Positions 3,172-48,758 of a stretch of 64,000 nucleotides of DNA are shown in pieces. The DNA is from Gammaproteobacteria bacterium (GTDB lineage: Bacteria > Pseudomonadota > Gammaproteobacteria > HTCC5015), in the NCBI GenBank assembly GCA_026004975.1, contig BPKE01000002.1, positions 1 to 64,000 of the forward strand, written 5' to 3'. The notes beneath the pieces were generated by a model. It was not told the origin of the DNA, did not search any database, and saw only the letters and a list, made by a program, of their open reading frames with translations. Each line of letters opens with the position of its first letter. Position 1 is the stretch's first letter. The translations under genes were made by a program, and so were the position numbers.

Positions 3172-3204
3172 TGAAAGAAAACGGCCCCCGCCGGGCGGGG
3201 GCCG
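3172..3204 (-). terminator. Intrinsic terminator of the cellulase gene
   Basis: On the minus strand a G+C hairpin (CGGCCCCCG paired with CGGGGGCCG, loop of 5) is followed directly by TTTTCTTTC. It lies 50 bp past the stop of the GH5 cellulase. On the plus strand there is no T-tract, so it serves the minus-strand gene. Confidence 0.8.
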
Positions 3205-3253: not shown

Positions 3254-5293
3254 TCAGTCCACGGCGTCGACCACCGCCTGGATCAGATCCGGGTAGAGCC
3301 GCGCGCCGCTGTTGCGGTCGAACAGCGCCATGCCGCCGTCGCCGGCATAGCCGTTGTCCCAGATCACGGGCACCAGACCGTGCTGGGCGGCGGAGCGGCT
3401 CACGTACTGGGTCCAGTAGAGCCGGTAGGTGTGGTGATCGGCAACCGACTGGCGCGAGATGGTGCCGTACTCACCGAGGATCACGCCCACGCCCTGGTCG
3501 ACGAAGCGGCTCTTCATCTTCTGGAACTGCCCGTCCACCCAGTCCTCGTTGGCCCAGGTCTCGACCCGGCTGGGGTCGGTGGCGATGCTGCCCCACTGGG
3601 TGATCTGGCTGTTGGGGTTGAGGGTGAAGTTGTACGGGTCGTAGTAGTGCACCTCCATCAACAAGCGACCCGAGGCGCTGTCCTGCGGCAGGTCGTTGCA
3701 GGACAAGGTGTAGTCGATGTTGGTGTTGAAACCCTGCACGACGAGGTAACGCTGGGCGTTGCCGCCGCCGGTGGCGCGCACCGTGTCCACGAACACCTGG
3801 TTGAAGCCGTTCTGCACCTCGCAGTACTCGGCGGTCGGCGGGCCGTAGTCACCGTCCACCATCACCTCGTTGGTGCCGGCGAACAGCAAGGTCTGCGGGT
3901 AATCGCGGAAGCGCCGCGCGATCTGGTCCCACATCACCGCCAGGCGCCCGTTGGCCTGCGCCTGGTTGGCATAGGTCGGCTGCAACCAACCCTCGTCCCA
4001 GTGCTCGTTGACGATCACGTAAAAACCGATGTCCAGCGCCCAGTCGACGACCTCCTGCACGCGGTCCAGCCACGCCGGGTCGATGGTGTAATTGGCCGCG
4101 TCGCTGAACTTGCTCCAGGCGACCGGCAGGCGCAGCGTGCGGAAGCCGGCGTCGTACACGGCTTGCAGCAATGCCCGGGTCACCGGCGGATTGCCCCAGG
4201 CGGTTTCACCGCCGATGGCGTCGAGCGAGTTGCCGAGGTTCCAGCCGGTCCCCATTTGCGCGGCGAACGCCGCGGAGCCACCGGCGGGCGGGCTGCTGGA
4301 GGACGACGCGCTGCTGCTTGAGCTCGAGGACGAGACGCTGCTCGAGCTGGAGGAGACGGAGCTGCTGCTCGAGGAGGACACGCTGCTGGAGCTGGACGCG
4401 CTGCTCGAAGTGCCCCCGCCGCAGGCCACGCCGTTCAGGGTGAAGGTCGTCGCCACGTTCGCCGGCGGCTGGCTGTTGTTGGCCTGGAAGCCGAAGCTCG
4501 CCGTGCCGCCGTTGGCCGCGAGATACCCGTTCCAGTGCCCGGCCGGGTTGGAGGCCGTCACCTGCGAACCCGAGGTGCTGAAGCTCGCGTTCCAGCCGCC
4601 GGCGAAGCTTTCTCCGGCACCCAGGTTCCAGGTCAGCGTCCAGCCGTCGATCGGCTGGCTCGACAGGTTGCGGACGGTGACGTTGACCTGGAAGCCGCCG
4701 CCCCAGTCGTTGGCGATCACGTAGTCCACCGCGCAGGCGCCGCCGCCCGTGCTGCTGCTCGAGCTGCTCGAGGAGACGCTGCTCGACGAACTGCTGCTCG
4801 AGCTGCTCGACGAGGACACGCTGGAGCTGCTGCTCGACGAGGACGAGACGCTGCTCGAAGAGCTGCTGGAAGACACCGAGCTCGAGCTGCTGCTCGACGT
4901 GCTGCTCGAAGTCCCCGATCCGTCCCCGACGCAGGCCGGCAGGCTGAACTGGCCGCTCACGCTGCCCTGGAAGCCGAACTGGGTGCTTTGGCCGGGGCCG
5001 AGATGGCCGTTGTAACCGACGTTGGTCGCCGTGATCGTATTGCCCGAGGCCGCAAGCTCGGCACTCCAGGCGTTGACGATCGAAACGGGCTGGTCGAATT
5101 GCAGGCGGACCTGCCAGCCGTCGACGGCGGCGGTGCCCGTGTTGGTGACGGTGACGTTGGCGACGAAGCCGCTGCCCCAGGAATCCGCGGTCACGCTGCA
5201 TTGCGTGGCGGCCTGGGCGACGCCGCCGGCGCAGGCGGCGAGCAGCGCCCCCAGGGCGGCCAGCGGCCGGCCGAAAGTGGAATACACGCTCAT
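3254..5293 (-). CDS. Secreted endoglucanase: CBM2-CBM2-GH5
   Basis: Secreted cellulase of 679 residues. Order: Sec signal peptide (1-28, ending AQA), a CBM2 cellulose-binding module (about 29-125, Cys pair CSVTADSW/LPACVG), a poly-Ser/Val linker (about 127-185), a second CBM2 (about 186-290), another Ser linker (about 293-338) and a GH5 catalytic domain (about 342-679). The GH5 core has GWNLGNS, the acid/base Glu in GTNEVMV and the nucleophile Glu in LGEYGT. The ATG at 5293 has an AGGAGGGG ribosome site 5-6 bases upstream. Polyserine linkers between CBM2 and catalytic domains are familiar from Cellvibrio-type degraders. The catalytic domain is closely paralogous to the GH5 at 47508-48758. Substrate is inferred as cellulose or a related beta-glucan. 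Confidence 0.92.
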   Translation of the reverse strand: MSVYSTFGRPLAALGALLAACAGGVAQAATQCSVTADSWGSGFVANVTVTNTGTAAVDGWQVRLQFDQPVSIVNAWSAELAASGNTITATNVGYNGHLGPGQSTQFGFQGSVSGQFSLPACVGDGSGTSSSTSSSSSSSVSSSSSSSSVSSSSSSSSSVSSSSSSSSSSSSSVSSSSSSSSTGGGACAVDYVIANDWGGGFQVNVTVRNLSSQPIDGWTLTWNLGAGESFAGGWNASFSTSGSQVTASNPAGHWNGYLAANGGTASFGFQANNSQPPANVATTFTLNGVACGGGTSSSASSSSSVSSSSSSSVSSSSSSVSSSSSSSSASSSSSPPAGGSAAFAAQMGTGWNLGNSLDAIGGETAWGNPPVTRALLQAVYDAGFRTLRLPVAWSKFSDAANYTIDPAWLDRVQEVVDWALDIGFYVIVNEHWDEGWLQPTYANQAQANGRLAVMWDQIARRFRDYPQTLLFAGTNEVMVDGDYGPPTAEYCEVQNGFNQVFVDTVRATGGGNAQRYLVVQGFNTNIDYTLSCNDLPQDSASGRLLMEVHYYDPYNFTLNPNSQITQWGSIATDPSRVETWANEDWVDGQFQKMKSRFVDQGVGVILGEYGTISRQSVADHHTYRLYWTQYVSRSAAQHGLVPVIWDNGYAGDGGMALFDRNSGARLYPDLIQAVVDAVD
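4281..4412 (-). repeat. Polyserine linker-coding repeat 2 of the cellulase
   Basis: Low-complexity tract of serine codons (AGC/TCG/TCC) with occasional Val, Ala and Pro, joining the second CBM2 to the GH5 domain. Seen from the plus strand it reads as Leu/Glu-rich open frames, which are artefacts. Confidence 0.8.
4748..4910 (-). repeat. Polyserine linker-coding repeat 1 of the cellulase
   Basis: About 55 codons, nearly all serine with periodic valines (S7-9 V blocks), between the two CBM2 modules. The near-periodic block structure suggests growth by slippage or unequal exchange. Confidence 0.8.
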
Positions 5294-5806: not shown

Positions 5807-5848
5807 TTGACCCCCGTCAAAGCCCCGGCGGCGCGCCTTCGGATAATA
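5807..5848 (+). promoter_or_regulatory. Dnr/FNR-type box and class II promoter of norCBD
   Basis: TTGAC-CCCC-GTCAA at 5807-5820 is a perfect 14-bp palindrome of the FNR/Dnr/Nnr type. A -10-like ATAATA/GATAAT lies at 5842-5848. With the start near 5855 the box is centred at about -41.5, the standard class II activator position. norC begins at 5934. The Dnr-like regulator at 18953-19648 is the probable activator. Confidence 0.85.
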
Positions 5849-6371: not shown

Positions 6372-7768
<1,397 letters not shown>

Positions 7769-7778
7769 GCCGGACGCC

Positions 7779-9596
7779 GTGGAAGAGGCGGTCGGTGGAC
7801 TCTGGCACCGCCTGATCACCCGCGCCGCCGCCGGGGAGCACCCGGCGGCGGCCGCGTCTTTCGCAGCGCTGCGCGGCCTGCTCGGCCCGTGGTACCGGGC
7901 GCTGGGCGGACCGGCCGGGCGGGCGATCGAGGCGACCGGCCCGCGTCCCTGGCGCGCCCACCGCAGCCTGTTGCAGCGCCTGGCCGGCAGCCACCGGCGT
8001 TTCGCCCTGGCCTGGCAGGACGCGGACGCGCTGCGCCTGCCGGACCGCCTGGCGCCGTTTCCGGATCCCGCTTCGAACCGGCGGCTGTACCTGTGGCTGG
8101 CGGCGCTGGCGGCCGTCGATCCGGAACCGGTGCGCGACCCGCTGGGCGACAACGTCGAACGCACACGGCGCCTGCTCGCACGCTGTCCCGGCCTGCAGGC
8201 CGATTACCGGCGCCTGGCGGCCGCCGCCCTGACCCTGCGCCCCCGCAGCGAGGCGCTGCCCCCCGCCCTGCGTGAGGCGGAAGCGCGGCTGCGCACCGCC
8301 CTCGCGACGCTTCGGGTGCCGCCCGGACCGCCGATCGACGGTCTGCCGCCGGTGCCCCTCTGGCTCTACCCGCCGCCGGGCAAGCCGGCCACATCCCGGC
8401 CCGCGACGGCAGACGACGAGACCGGGGGCGAACCGGCCCGCCGCACGGCGGCCGAACGCAAGCGGCGGGCCGCCGAGTACAGCGACGCCAAGCAGGACAA
8501 AGGCGGCCTGATCGCCTTCCGGCTGGAAAGCCTGTTCACGCTCAGCGAATTCGTCGATCTCGACCGCTGCCACGACGACGGCGAGGATCCGCACGCCGCG
8601 CGGGCGGCCGACGACCTGGACGTGCTCAGCCTGGCACGCCGCTCGGACGCGCGACCGGCCGCCGCGCTGCGCTTCGATCTGGACCTGCCGGCGCCGCGTT
8701 ACGACGACCGCGTGCTCGACGACGGCCTGCGCCTGCCGGAGTGGGACCACCGCCGGCGCTGCCTGTTGCCGGATCACTGCCGCCTGCTGACCATGGTGGC
8801 GCGGGAGACCGGCGACACGGCGCTGCCCGGCCACCTGCGGGCCGCCGCGGCGCGGTTGCGGCGGCGGTTCGCGGCCCTGCGCCCGCAGCGCGGCTGGCGG
8901 CGGCGGGAGGCCGACGGCGAGGAAATCGACCTCGATGCCTGGCTGGAACACCGCACGGCGGCCGGCAGCAAGCCGGCCGAACCGCGCGTCTACCGGCGCC
9001 TGGGCGGACGCGAGCGCGACCTCGCCGCCTTGCTGCTGGCCGATTTGTCGCTGTCCACGGAGGCGGCGCTGGACGAGGGGCGCAGCGTCATCGACGTGAT
9101 CCGCGACGCCCTGTACCTGTTCGCCGAGGCGGTCGGGGCGCTGGGCGACCCCTTCGCCCTGTGGGGCTTTTCGTCGCGCCGCCGGGACCACGTGCGCTTC
9201 CACCTGATCAAGACCTTCGAAGAGCCTTACGGCGCCGCGGTGAGAGGACGCATCGCCGCCCTGCGCCCCGGTTTCTACACCCGCATGGGCGCGCCGATCC
9301 GCCGCGCCACGCAACTGCTGGCCGCCCGGCCGGCGGCCCGGCGCGTGTTGCTGCTGCTCAGCGACGGCAAGCCCAACGACCTGGACCACTACGAAGGCCG
9401 CTGGGGGATCGAGGACACCCGCCAGGCCCTGCGCGAGGCCCGCCGGGCCGGCATCCGCCCCTTCTGCCTGACGATCGACCAGGAAGGCAACGACTATCTG
9501 CCATACCTGTTCGGCCACGACGGCTACGTGCTGTTGCACCAACCGGCGGCGCTGCCGGCGGCGCTGGCGCGCCTGTACCTACAATTGACGTTCTGA
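7779..9596 (+). CDS. norD: NorD, nitric oxide reductase activation protein (VWA domain)
   Basis: 605 residues from a GTG start 10 bp after the norB stop. The C-terminal third is a von Willebrand A domain with an intact MIDAS (DLSLST at about residue 422, later LLLSDGKPND). NorD works with the AAA+ protein NorQ to activate NorCB, probably by metal insertion. No norQ lies between norB and norD here, so NorQ must be elsewhere or absent. Apparently co-transcribed with norCB from the Dnr-type promoter. Confidence 0.9.
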   Translation: MEEAVGGLWHRLITRAAAGEHPAAAASFAALRGLLGPWYRALGGPAGRAIEATGPRPWRAHRSLLQRLAGSHRRFALAWQDADALRLPDRLAPFPDPASNRRLYLWLAALAAVDPEPVRDPLGDNVERTRRLLARCPGLQADYRRLAAAALTLRPRSEALPPALREAEARLRTALATLRVPPGPPIDGLPPVPLWLYPPPGKPATSRPATADDETGGEPARRTAAERKRRAAEYSDAKQDKGGLIAFRLESLFTLSEFVDLDRCHDDGEDPHAARAADDLDVLSLARRSDARPAAALRFDLDLPAPRYDDRVLDDGLRLPEWDHRRRCLLPDHCRLLTMVARETGDTALPGHLRAAAARLRRRFAALRPQRGWRRREADGEEIDLDAWLEHRTAAGSKPAEPRVYRRLGGRERDLAALLLADLSLSTEAALDEGRSVIDVIRDALYLFAEAVGALGDPFALWGFSSRRRDHVRFHLIKTFEEPYGAAVRGRIAALRPGFYTRMGAPIRRATQLLAARPAARRVLLLLSDGKPNDLDHYEGRWGIEDTRQALREARRAGIRPFCLTIDQEGNDYLPYLFGHDGYVLLHQPAALPAALARLYLQLTF

Positions 9597-9632: not shown

Positions 9633-9674
9633 TTGACGAAGATCAAGGCCGTCGCCACCCGCGGACGCCAGACT
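9633..9674 (+). promoter_or_regulatory. Second Dnr/FNR-type box with candidate -10
   Basis: TTGAC-GAAG-ATCAA at 9633-9646 matches the Dnr/FNR consensus in both half-sites. Class II geometry puts transcription start near 9681 with a weak -10 (CAGACT, 9669-9674). It lies 37 bp after the norD stop and 159 bp before nnrS, with a strong terminator between it and nnrS. Confidence 0.75.
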
Positions 9675-9680
9675 GTGTCC

Positions 9681-9778
9681 CGAGCACGCCGCCGGCCCAC
9701 CCTCGTGCTCGATTCCACCCACCGCCGGCGGCGCCGCACGGCCCCGCCCGCCCTCGCGGTCGGCGGGCGGGGCGTTTT
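9681..9778 (+). ncRNA. Candidate Dnr-controlled small RNA or leader upstream of nnrS
   Basis: Starting at the predicted start point, the sequence forms a 5' hairpin (CGAGCAC 9681-9687 with GTGCTCG 9705-9711) and ends in a perfect 12-bp terminator hairpin with GTTTTCT. Between them are G+C-rich segments (GCCGCCGGC, GCCGGCGGC) that could also pair with each other. Size, structure and promoter type recall FNR-family-controlled Hfq-type sRNAs such as FnrS, but there is no visible sequence match to a known sRNA. Alternatives: an attenuator leader for nnrS, or merely the norD terminator plus spacer. No open reading frame of note is inside. Confidence 0.45.
9741..9778 (+). terminator. Strong intrinsic terminator before nnrS
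   Basis: GCCCCGCCCGCC (9741-9752) pairs perfectly with GGCGGGCGGGGC (9762-9773), loop of 9, followed by GTTTT. It can end both norD read-through and any transcript from the box at 9633-9646. nnrS starts 26 bp later, so nnrS needs read-through or its own promoter. Confidence 0.85.
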
Positions 9779-9804
9779 CTGCGCTGCGACAACGAGAACG
9801 AAAA

Positions 9805-10974
9805 ATGAACGCCCCTGCTCGCGCCCGTTTCGCCCTGTTCGCCCTGGGTTTCCGACCGTTTTTCCTCGCCGCCTGTCTCTACGCGGTGCTCGCCGTCGTG
9901 CCCTGGTGGTTCGTTTACACCGGTGCGCTGGCGCTGCCCGCCGGTGTGGCGCCGTTCCACTGGCACGCCCACGAGATGGTGTGGGGCTACGCGATGGCCG
10001 TGATCGCCGGCTTCTTGCTGACCGCGGTGCGCAACTGGACGGGCGAAGCGACGCCGCAGGGCGCGCCCCTCGCCGCCCTGGTCCTCGTCTGGGCGCTGGC
10101 ACGCGCCTGGCCGTGGCTGGATACGCCGGCCACGCTGTGGATCGAAGGGCTGTGGTATGCCGCCCTGATCGTCGCCGTCGCCCGCCCCATCGTCCGCGCC
10201 CGGCAGTGGCGGCAACTGGGCATTCTCTCCAAGCTGTTGCTGCTGGCCGCCGCCGACGCCCTCTATCACCTGGCGGCGGCCGGCCACGTCGCGCTGGCGC
10301 CGCGCACCGGTTTGTACCTCGGCCTGTACCTGGTGCTGGCCCTGGTGCTGACCATCGGCCGCCGGGTGATCCCGTTCTTCACCGAGCGCGGCGTCGGCGA
10401 ACCGGTGCTGCTGCGCAATCACCGCGCCGTGGACGCCGCCTGCCTGATCGTCTTCCTGCTGTTCGCCTTCGCCGACGCCTTCGCTGCCCCGCGCGGCTGG
10501 GTGGCGGCCGGCGCCGCCGTGCTCGCGGTCCTGCACGCCTACCGCCTGGCCGGCTGGTTCACCCCCGGCATCCTGCGCCGGCCGCTGCTGTGGAGCCTGC
10601 ATCTGGGCTACGCGTTCATCGTCGCCGGCTTCGCCCTCTATGCGCTGAGCCTGTGGCTGGGGTCATCGCCCTTCCCCGCCCTGCACGCCTTCGCCTACGG
10701 CGGCATCGGCCTGACCAGCGCCAGCATGATGGCCCGCGTTTCGCTGGGCCACACCGGCCGCAACGTCCATGCCCCGCCGCCCTGGGTCGGGCCGCTGCTG
10801 GGCCTGCTGGCGGCCGGCGCGCTGCTGCGCGTCGCCGGTCCGCTGCTGGTCCCGGCCGCCCAGCGCGGTTTCATCGCCGCGAGCGCGCTCCTCTGGGTGC
10901 TGGCCTTCCTCGGGCTGGCGGCCCTCTACCTGCCGCTGTGGTGCGCGCCGCGCGCCGACGGCCGCCCGGACTGA
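9805..10974 (+). CDS. nnrS: NnrS, haem- and copper-containing membrane protein of the NO response
   Basis: 389 residues with about 12 hydrophobic helices. Recognised by the NnrS N-terminus ([15 protein letters not shown]), the [19 protein letters not shown] segment with putative haem/copper histidines, the RNWTG motif, and [13 protein letters not shown]. NnrS is induced with denitrification genes and protects against nitrosative stress; its molecular mechanism is still unclear. The start has only a weak ribosome site (GAGAACGAAAA). fabA follows after 21 bp on the same strand. Confidence 0.92.
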
Positions 10975-18952: not shown

Positions 18953-19648
18953 ATGAACGAGGCCGCCACCACCGACCGCGCCGCCGCCGTACTGCGCGCC
19001 CACCATTTGTTCAAGGCCATCGGCGAGACCGACTTCGCGCGCCTGATCCAGCGGGTGCGGCCGGTCATGCTGGCCGCCGGCGAGCGGCTGTTCCACCAGG
19101 GCGACCCGGCCGATCGCTTTTTCGTCATCGAACACGGGCGCATCAAGCTCAGCCGCCTGGCGCCTTCGGGCCAGGAGAAAGTCATCGAGGTCATGGACGA
19201 CGGCATGAGCTTCGCCGAGGCGGTGATGTTCCTCGGCGCGCCGCACTACCCCGTCGGCGCCGAGGCGCTGTGCGCCAGCCGGCTGTGGGCGGTGCCCAAC
19301 CGGCTCTATCTGGAAGTGCTGCGCAAGGATCCGCAGACCTGCCTGGCGCTGCTCGCCGATCTGAGCATCCGCCTGCACGCACGCCTGCGCGAGATCGACG
19401 CGCTCAGCCAGCAGAACGCCGTCCACCGGCTCATCCGCTATCTGCTCGACCGCATCGGCCCGCAGGCCTCGGGTCGGGCCGAGGTCGATCTCGACATGCC
19501 CAAGCAAGTGCTCGCTTCGCGCTTGTCGATCAAGCCCGAGTCGTTCTCGCGGCTGCTCGCCCAGCTCAGCCAGGCCGGCCTGATCAGCGTCCACGGCCGG
19601 CGCATCGAAATCCACGACGTCGCCGGCCTGCGCGCCTACCCCGGTTGA
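18953..19648 (+). CDS. dnr: Crp/Fnr-family regulator, Dnr-like
   Basis: 231 residues: a cyclic-nucleotide-binding-like sensor domain (about 20-130; GERLFHQGDPADRFFVIEHGRIKLSR) and a C-terminal HTH. The recognition helix region KPESFSRLLAQL has the E-x-x-S-R set that reads TTGAT/TTGAC half-sites. There are no N-terminal Fe-S cysteines as in FNR/Anr, so it belongs with Dnr/NnrR-type haem-based NO sensors. Probable targets in the window are the boxes at 5807-5820 and 9633-9646. The start at 18953 lacks a clear ribosome site. Confidence 0.85.
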   Translation: MNEAATTDRAAAVLRAHHLFKAIGETDFARLIQRVRPVMLAAGERLFHQGDPADRFFVIEHGRIKLSRLAPSGQEKVIEVMDDGMSFAEAVMFLGAPHYPVGAEALCASRLWAVPNRLYLEVLRKDPQTCLALLADLSIRLHARLREIDALSQQNAVHRLIRYLLDRIGPQASGRAEVDLDMPKQVLASRLSIKPESFSRLLAQLSQAGLISVHGRRIEIHDVAGLRAYPG

Positions 19649-19829
19649 GCGGCGCATCGCCAATCGGACCGGGCGAAGGCTCGATGCCCGGGACCGGGCC
19701 GGCATGCGACGGCGGGCCGCCAGCCGAGCCCGGTGCGACCACGGCGGCGTCCTGCTAGGTAGTCTCCACAGGCCGCCCCGGGGCGGTTACGGAAGCACGG
19801 GCGCGGCGGGCGGCGTTATCATCCGCGGC

Positions 19830-21182
19830 ATGCAACCCATCGACACCGCCCGGCGGCTGCTCGCCGAAGGCCTGCCCCGGCAGCGGCTGCCGCGTTACAC
19901 GAGCTATCCGCCGGCGACCGCCTTCGAACCGCTGGAGGCGGACGAGGCCGCCGTCTGGCTGGAGGCGCTCGAGCCGGGCCGGCCGGTGTCCCTCTACGTC
20001 CACGTGCCCTTCTGCCGGCAACTGTGCTGGTTCTGCGGCTGCCACACGACCATCACCCACAAGGACGACCGGCTGCGCGCCTACCGGGCGCGCCTGGAAC
20101 GCGAGCTCGCCCTGATCGAGGCCCGCACCGGTCCGCTCACTTTCGGTCATCTGCACTTCGGCGGCGGCTCGCCCACGGCGCTGCCGGCCGACGAGTTCAC
20201 CGCTTTCATGAACGCCCTGCACGGCCGCCACCGCTTCACGGAAACGGCCGAGAAGGCGGTCGAGATCGATCCCCGCACGGCCGACCCCGCCCGCCTGGAC
20301 GCGCTGGCGGCGGCCGGCATCAACCGCGTCAGCCTCGGCGTGCAGGACTTCGATCCGCGCGTGCAGCAGGCGGTCAACCGCATCCAGCCCTTCGAACGGG
20401 TGGCCGCGGTGGTCGACGGCTTGCGCCGGCGCGGCATCGGGTCGATCAACATCGACCTGATGTACGGCCTGCCCCACCAGGACGAGGCGGTGGTGGCGGC
20501 CAGCGCGCGCCTGGCCCTGCAACTGGATCCCGACCGCGTGGCGCTGTTCGGCTACGCCCACCTGCCGGCGCTGCGCAAGCACCAGCGCCTGCTCGACGGC
20601 CTGCCGATGGCCCCGCCCGACGCCCGGGCGCGGCTGTTCGCCGCCGCCGCCGAGGTGTTCCGCGAGGCCGGCTACCTGCCCGTGGGCATCGACCATTTCG
20701 TCCACCCCCGCGACAGCATGGCGCGGGCGCTGGCCGAACGCCGCCTGCGGCGCAACTTCCAGGGCTACACCACCGACCCTTGCGACACGCTGATCGGCCT
20801 GGGCGCCTCGGCGATCGGCGAATGGCCGGCCGGCTATCTGCAGAACGACCCGGACCTGAAAGGCTACGCACGCCGCGTCGACGCCGCCGTCCTGCCCGTC
20901 GTGCGCGGACGCGCGCTCGACGCCGAGGACCGCCGCCGGCGGCGGCTGATCGGGGAGCTGATGTGCTATTTCGAGACCGATCTGGCACCGCGGCCCGGTG
21001 AGCCGGCGGCGGCGCTGGAGGCCGAACGCCGCGCCCTGGCCCTGTTCGCCGAAGCGGGCCTGTTGCGCCTGGAGGGCGAGCGGATCGTGCTCACCGAAAG
21101 CGGCCGCCCCTGGGTGCGCGCGGTGTGCGCCGTGTTCGACCAGGGCCACCACCGGCTGGGACGCTATTCCCTGGCCGTGTGA
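19830..21182 (+). CDS. hemN: Oxygen-independent coproporphyrinogen III dehydrogenase
   Basis: 450 residues, normal for HemN. Radical-SAM enzyme of anaerobic haem synthesis, with the Fe-S motif as C-x3-C-x2-C in CRQLCWFCGC. The N-terminal PRYTSYPPATAF and the later NIDLMYGLPHQ and GVQDFDPRVQQAVNR blocks are typical HemN rather than HemW. It follows the Dnr-like gene by 180 bp, a common pairing for anaerobic life, but no FNR box is visible in that gap. Confidence 0.94.
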   Translation: MQPIDTARRLLAEGLPRQRLPRYTSYPPATAFEPLEADEAAVWLEALEPGRPVSLYVHVPFCRQLCWFCGCHTTITHKDDRLRAYRARLERELALIEARTGPLTFGHLHFGGGSPTALPADEFTAFMNALHGRHRFTETAEKAVEIDPRTADPARLDALAAAGINRVSLGVQDFDPRVQQAVNRIQPFERVAAVVDGLRRRGIGSINIDLMYGLPHQDEAVVAASARLALQLDPDRVALFGYAHLPALRKHQRLLDGLPMAPPDARARLFAAAAEVFREAGYLPVGIDHFVHPRDSMARALAERRLRRNFQGYTTDPCDTLIGLGASAIGEWPAGYLQNDPDLKGYARRVDAAVLPVVRGRALDAEDRRRRRLIGELMCYFETDLAPRPGEPAAALEAERRALALFAEAGLLRLEGERIVLTESGRPWVRAVCAVFDQGHHRLGRYSLAV

Positions 21183-47542: not shown

Positions 47543-48758
47543 GCTCGGGATGAACCGGCTCGCCGGTCGTTCGGTCGAACAGCCCCATGCCGTCGTCGGC
47601 GCCGGCCGCGCCGTTGTCCCAGACCATCGGCACCAGGCAATGGCTCAGCGCCGAGCGGGTCACGTAGTCGTACCAGTCCAGGCGGAACAAGGCGTGCTCG
47701 GCGTCGCCGAGACGAGCCACCGTGCCGTACTCGCCGAGGATCACGGGCACGCCCCGGTCGGCGTAGGCCTCGCGGATTTTGCCGAACTGCCGCTCGACCC
47801 AGTCCTCGTCGCCCCAGCCGGCGGTGCGCGCCGGATCGTAGGCCCGCCCGCCCCACTGGGTGACGTCCGAATCGGGCTGCAGGGTGAAGGGATACGGGTC
47901 GTAGTAGTGCACTTCCATCATCAAGCGGCCCGAGACGGTGTCCTGCGGCAAGGTGTTGCAGTCCAGGGTGTAGTCGATGTTGGTGTTGAAACCCTGCACG
48001 ACGAGATAACGCTGGGCGTTGCCGCCGCCGCTCGCGCGCACCGTGTCCACGAACAGCTGGTTGTAGCCGTTCTGCACCTCGCAGTACTCCTCGGTCGGCG
48101 GACCCCAATCGCCTTCGACCATGACCTCGTTGGTGCCGGCGAACAACAGCCGCTCCGGATAGTCCCGGAAACGCGCCGCCACCTGCTCCCAGATGCGCCG
48201 CAAGCGCTCGGAGGCCTGCGGCCGCGCCGCGTAGGTCGGCTGCAACCAGCCCCCGTCCCAATGTTCGTTGACGATGACGACGAAGCCGATGTCGAGCGCC
48301 CAGTCGACCACCTCCTGGACACGATCCAGCCAAGCCGGGTCGATGGTGTAGGTCGACGGGTCGCTGAAGCGGCTCCAGGCGACCGGCAGGCGCAAGGAAC
48401 GGAACCCGGCGTCCCACACCGCCTGCAGAAAGGCGCGCGTCACCGGCGGGTTGCCCCAGGCGGTTTCCTCGGGCGTGCCGTCCGCGTTCAAGGCTTCGAG
48501 GCTGTTGCCCAGGTTCCAGCCCACGCCCATCGCACGGGCCAGGGCGATGGCGGCGTTGTCGGCCCGGCAACCCGGTCCGCCGGCGGGCGGCGGACGGTAG
48601 TCGGGATCGGCACCGGCCGCCACCGAGCCCGACGAAGCCGCGCTCGAGGACGACGCGTCCACCGGCGGCGGGCCGTCGCCTCCGCCGCCGTTCTTACAAG
48701 CGGCCAGCGCCGCGAGGGTGAAGAAGAACGCGAAACACCGCAGGCGGCCGAAAGACAT
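47508..48758 (-). CDS. GH5 endoglucanase, lipoprotein form
   Basis: 416 residues. N-terminal lipobox LAALAAC after a hydrophobic stretch, a short Ser-rich linker (about 40-52), then a GH5 domain with GWNLGNS, the acid/base Glu in GTNEVMV and the nucleophile Glu in LGEYGT. The catalytic domain is a close paralogue of that at 3254-5293 (for instance NAQRYLVVQGFNTNIDYTL is shared), but it is membrane-anchored and lacks CBMs. The ATG at 48758 has GAGGTG 8 bases upstream; a much longer in-frame extension is rejected. Probably acts on oligomers at the cell surface after the secreted enzyme. Confidence 0.9.
   Translation of the reverse strand: MSFGRLRCFAFFFTLAALAACKNGGGGDGPPPVDASSSSAASSGSVAAGADPDYRPPPAGGPGCRADNAAIALARAMGVGWNLGNSLEALNADGTPEETAWGNPPVTRAFLQAVWDAGFRSLRLPVAWSRFSDPSTYTIDPAWLDRVQEVVDWALDIGFVVIVNEHWDGGWLQPTYAARPQASERLRRIWEQVAARFRDYPERLLFAGTNEVMVEGDWGPPTEEYCEVQNGYNQLFVDTVRASGGGNAQRYLVVQGFNTNIDYTLDCNTLPQDTVSGRLMMEVHYYDPYPFTLQPDSDVTQWGGRAYDPARTAGWGDEDWVERQFGKIREAYADRGVPVILGEYGTVARLGDAEHALFRLDWYDYVTRSALSHCLVPMVWDNGAAGADDGMGLFDRTTGEPVHPELIAAVVGAATD

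Follow-up and report, generated by a model that had tools for sequence, protein, structure and literature searches.

The nnrS gene is a DNR/NnrR target and belongs to NO-responsive regulons (PMC1274295). Small RNAs under the control of FNR-family regulators are also known: FnrS is a repressor of over 30 mRNAs (review PMC8139620), and SicX, for which orthologues are known, acts in the anaerobic regulon, where its effect on the tested target ubiUVT is independent of Hfq (PMC10247376). Moreover, premature termination without known trans function is widespread (PMC7815308). We report that the 208-nt intergenic region between norD and nnrS in a gammaproteobacterial genome carries a Dnr/FNR-type box, a 12-bp hairpin and the tail GTTTTCT. 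We suggest, with a probability of roughly one half, that this stretch represents the nnrS promoter followed by a 124-nt untranslated leader with an intrinsic terminator that limits read-through; none of the other nnrS leaders that we examined showed such a damping layer.

Gene setting and the Dnr-type promoter of nnrS

The sequence analysed (the window) is the opening 64 kb of contig 2 in a genome of 1.67 Mb that is 64% complete; the G+C content of the window is 71%. The features discussed are listed in Table 1. The norD-like product shares 41-54% identity over approximately 600 residues with NorD-like proteins of the class. The norB reading frame (6384-6800) appears to be broken twice: near residue 41 (after GDFLFPG) it shifts from frame 6384 to 6385, and later it changes to a third frame. 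Judging from the sequence, these breaks are likely sequencing indels, and norB is possibly a pseudogene. Because the assembly shows apparent indels in the nearby norB, bases in the leader may also be wrong.

Table 1. Features of the norCBD-nnrS region and of the candidate activator gene (positions in the window).
Feature	Position	Strand	Remarks
Dnr-type box before norC	5807-5820	+	TTGACCCCCGTCAA
norC	from 5931	+	Gene order norC, norB, norD, nnrS, then a FabA-like gene
norD-like gene, last gene of norCBD	7779-9596	+	C-terminal VWA domain; stop ends at 9596
Dnr/FNR-type box, TTGAC-GAAG-ATCAA	9633-9646	+	TTGACGAAGATCAA; exact match; 36 nt 3' of the norD stop
-10-like hexamer CAGACT	9669-9674	+	22 nt 3' of the box, class II layout
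Predicted transcription start	9681 (plus or minus 2)	+	From the box centre, 9639.5 + 41.5 nt
Long stem of the leader (predicted)	9681-9740	+	9681-9696 with 9724-9740, around a C-rich loop; pair probabilities 0.85-0.99
Intrinsic-terminator-like hairpin and tail	9741-9780	+	12 perfect pairs, -29.5 kcal/mol, tail GTTTTCT
nnrS, NnrS family	9805-10974	+	389 aa; PF05940, E = 3.7e-98; ATG at 9805
CRP/FNR-family regulator, Dnr-like	18953-19648	+	Without the N-terminal Fe-S cysteines of FNR; hemN next

A pattern search of the 1.67-Mb genome gave 11 sites of TTGAYNNNNRTCAA compared with one for the reversed-pattern control, and on these counts the box before nnrS, already pointed out in an earlier note on this DNA, is real. 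According to the translations, sites precede norC, nrdD and ubiU; further sites adjoin a norQ/cbbQ-like gene or fall within the ubiV/ubiT region, and others lie inside genes and may be due to chance. The putative -10 hexamer has counterparts both in relatives and in the same genome. In relative L140, CAGACT comes exactly 22 nt after the box 3' of norD, before a cytochrome gene, and relative L146 has TAGACT 23 nt 3' of the box, while the own-genome counterparts are TAGCAT at 22 nt (nrdD) and (g)ATAAT(a) at 21-22 nt (norC). An A at position 2 together with a T at position 6 of the -10 place was present in six of the 12 listed relatives, compared with 1.9% of the window positions. Because L140 has the same spacing and the same hexamer between norD and the next gene, class II activation with a predicted start near 9681 appears well supported. 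A promoter search gave no other recognisable promoter before nnrS, and none in the 31 nt between the hairpin and the ATG.

The Dnr-like gene and hemN together span 18953-21182, about 9 kb from norCBD-nnrS. The product of the former matches no NCBIfam equivalog at or above its cut-off, and we named it Dnr by reading of its sequence; it is the likely activator of both boxes, i.e. those before norC and nnrS. The enrichment of the box, the class II spacing, the occurrence of CAGACT in the norD-downstream promoter of a relative and the dnr-like gene in the window all speak for the Dnr promoter that had been claimed.

Terminator-like hairpin and predicted fold of the leader

The hairpin at 9741-9773 consists of GCCCCGCCCGCC, a loop of nine and GGCGGGCGGGGC, followed by GTTTTCT. 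Its terminator score d is 7.5 and its pairs have probabilities of 0.94-1.00 in the folded leader. No other perfect stem on the plus strand of the window reaches 12 bp and has at least four T in the next eight bases; the second plus-strand stem that passes the T-tail test has 9 bp and is located at 48663. As a sequence feature, the perfect 12-bp terminator hairpin described earlier is borne out, since 1000 dinucleotide shuffles of the intergenic region (208 nt) never produced a perfect stem of this length.

The tail has four consecutive U residues, which is a short tract, and one G separates them from the stem. This weak tail would fit a hairpin that does not terminate and forms part of a G+C-rich leader structure, nnrS then being a gene that Dnr activates and that has a long, structured leader. 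Stems of this kind are moreover common at 71% G+C (the 64 kb contain 27 perfect stems of 9 bp or longer, of which most lack a T tail). However, the 12 perfect pairs with a T-rich tail, the score and the shuffles argue against a non-terminating hairpin, which we consider unlikely. Other terminator-like stems in the window share the same style, i.e. a G+C stem of 10-14 bp followed by about four T. One of them is a minus-strand hairpin of 10 bp at 3182-3204 (TTTTCTTT), approximately 50 nt behind a cellulase-like gene with Ser-rich linkers.

The hairpin is also the only strong plus-strand terminator-like site after norD, as would be expected if it were a late-placed norCBD terminator that overlaps by accident with the nnrS promoter; nnrS would then be expressed at a low level or from an unrecognised start. 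Since norCBD has its own Dnr box, both transcripts would be induced together, which would suit such an arrangement. On the other hand, a complete box and -10 hexamer lie between the norD stop and the hairpin, which begins 144 nt downstream of that stop, and the distance from the hairpin to the nnrS ATG is too short for a recognisable promoter. In addition, a comparable terminator behind norD was found in none of the 28 relatives with readable downstream sequence. We regard a hairpin that serves norCBD alone as improbable.

For the 5' end of the transcript, a separate 7-bp hairpin had been proposed. In the sequence this hairpin comprises 8 bp (9681-9688 with 9704-9711), and when the window is divided into 1066 tiles of 60 nt, 151 of them (about one in seven) contain a stem of 7 bp or more and 66 a stem of 8 bp or more. 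Its pairs have a probability of only 0.006 (approximately 0.6%) in the folded leader, where the stem 9687-9696/9724-9733, extended outward to 9681/9740, displaces it at about 0.99 and leaves the C-rich loop 9697-9723 unpaired. The 5' hairpin is the minimum free energy structure only for RNAs that stop short of about 9730; according to the model it could form only transiently, as the RNA is being made, or else within a pseudoknot, a kind of structure outside the fold model. As a distinct element it is thus weak, being common by chance and replaced on folding, and the compact order of hairpin, linker and terminator does not correspond to the predicted structure.

No antiterminator competing with the terminator was detected: with the terminator forbidden, the leader folds at -26.9 kcal/mol compared with -62.1 kcal/mol (35 worse). 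In view of this lack of a competing structure, constitutive damping of nnrS relative to norCBD seems likelier than a switch under the control of a ligand or of translation. The attenuating nnrS leader that the earlier note gave as an alternative fits better than an sRNA.

Relatives and the question of a regulatory sRNA

The regions before 108 other nnrS genes were read, with the orientation checked by tblastn. An exact box within 350 nt before nnrS was present in 14 of the 108. The predicted leaders measure 0-78 nt to the likely start codon in 12 of these 14, and the boxes in L105 and L118 are more distant. Between the predicted start and nnrS, none of the 14 box-bearing genes carries a G+C-rich hairpin followed by a T tail; the leader in L118 has one A+T-rich 9-bp stem. 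As these genes lack such a terminator, attenuation is not conserved. On the same finding the reading as a conserved sRNA fails, since the earlier note had itself taken homologues with the box but not the hairpins as refuting its proposal.

Downstream of norD, an exact box within 350 nt was present in seven of 29 relatives (L137 offers only 7 nt there), which makes a Dnr promoter ahead of the gene that follows norD a recurrent layout. In L130 the box comes after norD, with TAAAAA at a distance of 22 nt, and the next gene is nnrS-like; its leader measures about 20 nt and lacks a hairpin, and this region (about 3494-3600 of the reverse complement) is a plain form of the norD-box-nnrS layout of the window. 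The same-family relative L010 has an nnrS with 34% identity and one in-frame TAA, and the start predicted from its box coincides with an ATG; this nnrS is possibly leaderless. In L037 the box TTGACGAATGTCAA (1501-1514) lies in the divergent region of TonB-receptor-like and tryptophan-halogenase-like genes, which is unusual for an NO/anaerobic regulator.

A homologue of the leader was found in none of 369 genomes of the class (none of the same genus), where only short G+C-rich matches appeared (E 1e-3 to 1e-5). BLAST matches to parts of the leader in L017, L018 and L015 were rejected, being short, G+C-rich and in or beside unrelated genes. As far as can be seen, the hairpin-bearing stretch of about 100 nt would thus be special to this genome. 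A covariance search, suggested previously as a check, came to no model since there was no homologous leader to build it on.

The main proposal of the earlier note was a trans-acting, Dnr-controlled sRNA of approximately 98 nt (9681-9778), similar to FnrS or SicX, with nnrS made by read-through or from another signal. The distance between promoter and terminator is suitable for such an RNA, and in the modelled fold the unpaired C-rich loop might, in theory, base-pair with ribosome-binding sites rich in G. Hfq-type sRNAs have a long terminal U tail, in contrast to the four U's here, and no Hfq was found in the 64%-complete genome. The leader had no match in Rfam, whether the gathering score was applied or E values up to 5 were admitted. 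When the loop was paired with the gene starts in the window, the energies were no better than those of shuffled loops. When seven genes of the anaerobic regulon and the neighbourhood were subjected to the pairing test, only norC stood out (p = 0.01), which with seven tests may be due to chance; norC was rejected as a target, the match resting on the palindrome CCGCCGGCGG. There was no pairing signal at the ubiU start. Taken together, target prediction, covering the window genes and a few genes elsewhere in the same genome, gave no signal above shuffled sequence.

The 5'-UTR origin would have precedents: sRNAs from 5' UTRs under the activator of the gene itself are known, e.g. Vsr217 in malK (PMC8265627), and ChiZ/IspZ are likewise derived from 5' UTRs (PMC7815308). 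Nevertheless, with the 5' hairpin lost on folding, no homologue, a four-U tail and no target signal, the analysis lends no support to a stand-alone regulatory sRNA, and we find the proposal unlikely. It is plausible that the RNA of about 98 nt is a by-product of the nnrS leader. A lineage-specific variant, in which a Dnr-induced RNA from the nnrS leader would repress or activate other mRNAs through its C-rich loop under NO while read-through makes nnrS, seems to us about as unlikely.

Proposed premature termination in the nnrS leader and known systems

Premature termination in the nnrS leader is the simplest reading, because the box, the -10 hexamer, the start and the terminator precede nnrS and there is no other recognisable promoter. 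Dnr, or another FNR-type regulator, would bind at 9633-9646 and activate the class II promoter, whose transcripts would begin near 9681. The leader would then fold into the long stem and, after it, the intrinsic terminator ending near 9778. A large share of the transcripts would stop as a leader RNA of about 98 nt, made whenever Dnr is active, and nnrS mRNA would come from read-through only; read-through must be assumed because full termination would silence nnrS. The same hairpin would also end norCBD transcripts arriving from upstream. The box, the -10 hexamer, the terminator and the gene order are taken from the sequence, and from these we infer the start site, termination in vivo and the extent of read-through.

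If the terminator works as we read it, premature termination would hold down the expression of nnrS in this lineage while the gene is under its NO-responsive activator. Any additional activity of the short RNA in trans would give the NO response a post-transcriptional arm.

The E. coli FnrS, which is FNR-dependent, likewise has an FNR-family box and a compact transcript with an intrinsic terminator, the latter being predicted in our case. It differs from the present unit, which has a four-U tail, lies 31 nt before a gene and shows no target signal. The Anr-dependent SicX of P. aeruginosa (PMC10247376) likewise derives from a unit under the control of a box, in which a Rho-independent terminator comes early; here, in contrast, there is neither a homologue nor a pairing signal at the ubiU start. 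For E. coli ChiZ/IspZ (PMC7815308) and for Vibrio Vsr217 in the malK leader (PMC8265627), the likeness lies in a short RNA, expected here, that comes from a leader and shares its activator with the gene. Vsr217 is conserved in its genus, whereas the RNA discussed here is predicted from one sequence and its leader has no homologue. Finally, the Dnr/NnrR-regulated nnrS promoters (PLoS Comput Biol 2005, PMC1274295) likewise have an FNR-type box before nnrS. Compared with these, and with most box-bearing relatives, where the predicted leaders are 0-78 nt and none has a G+C-rich terminator-like hairpin, the present nnrS has a predicted leader of 124 nt that includes a strong hairpin of this type.
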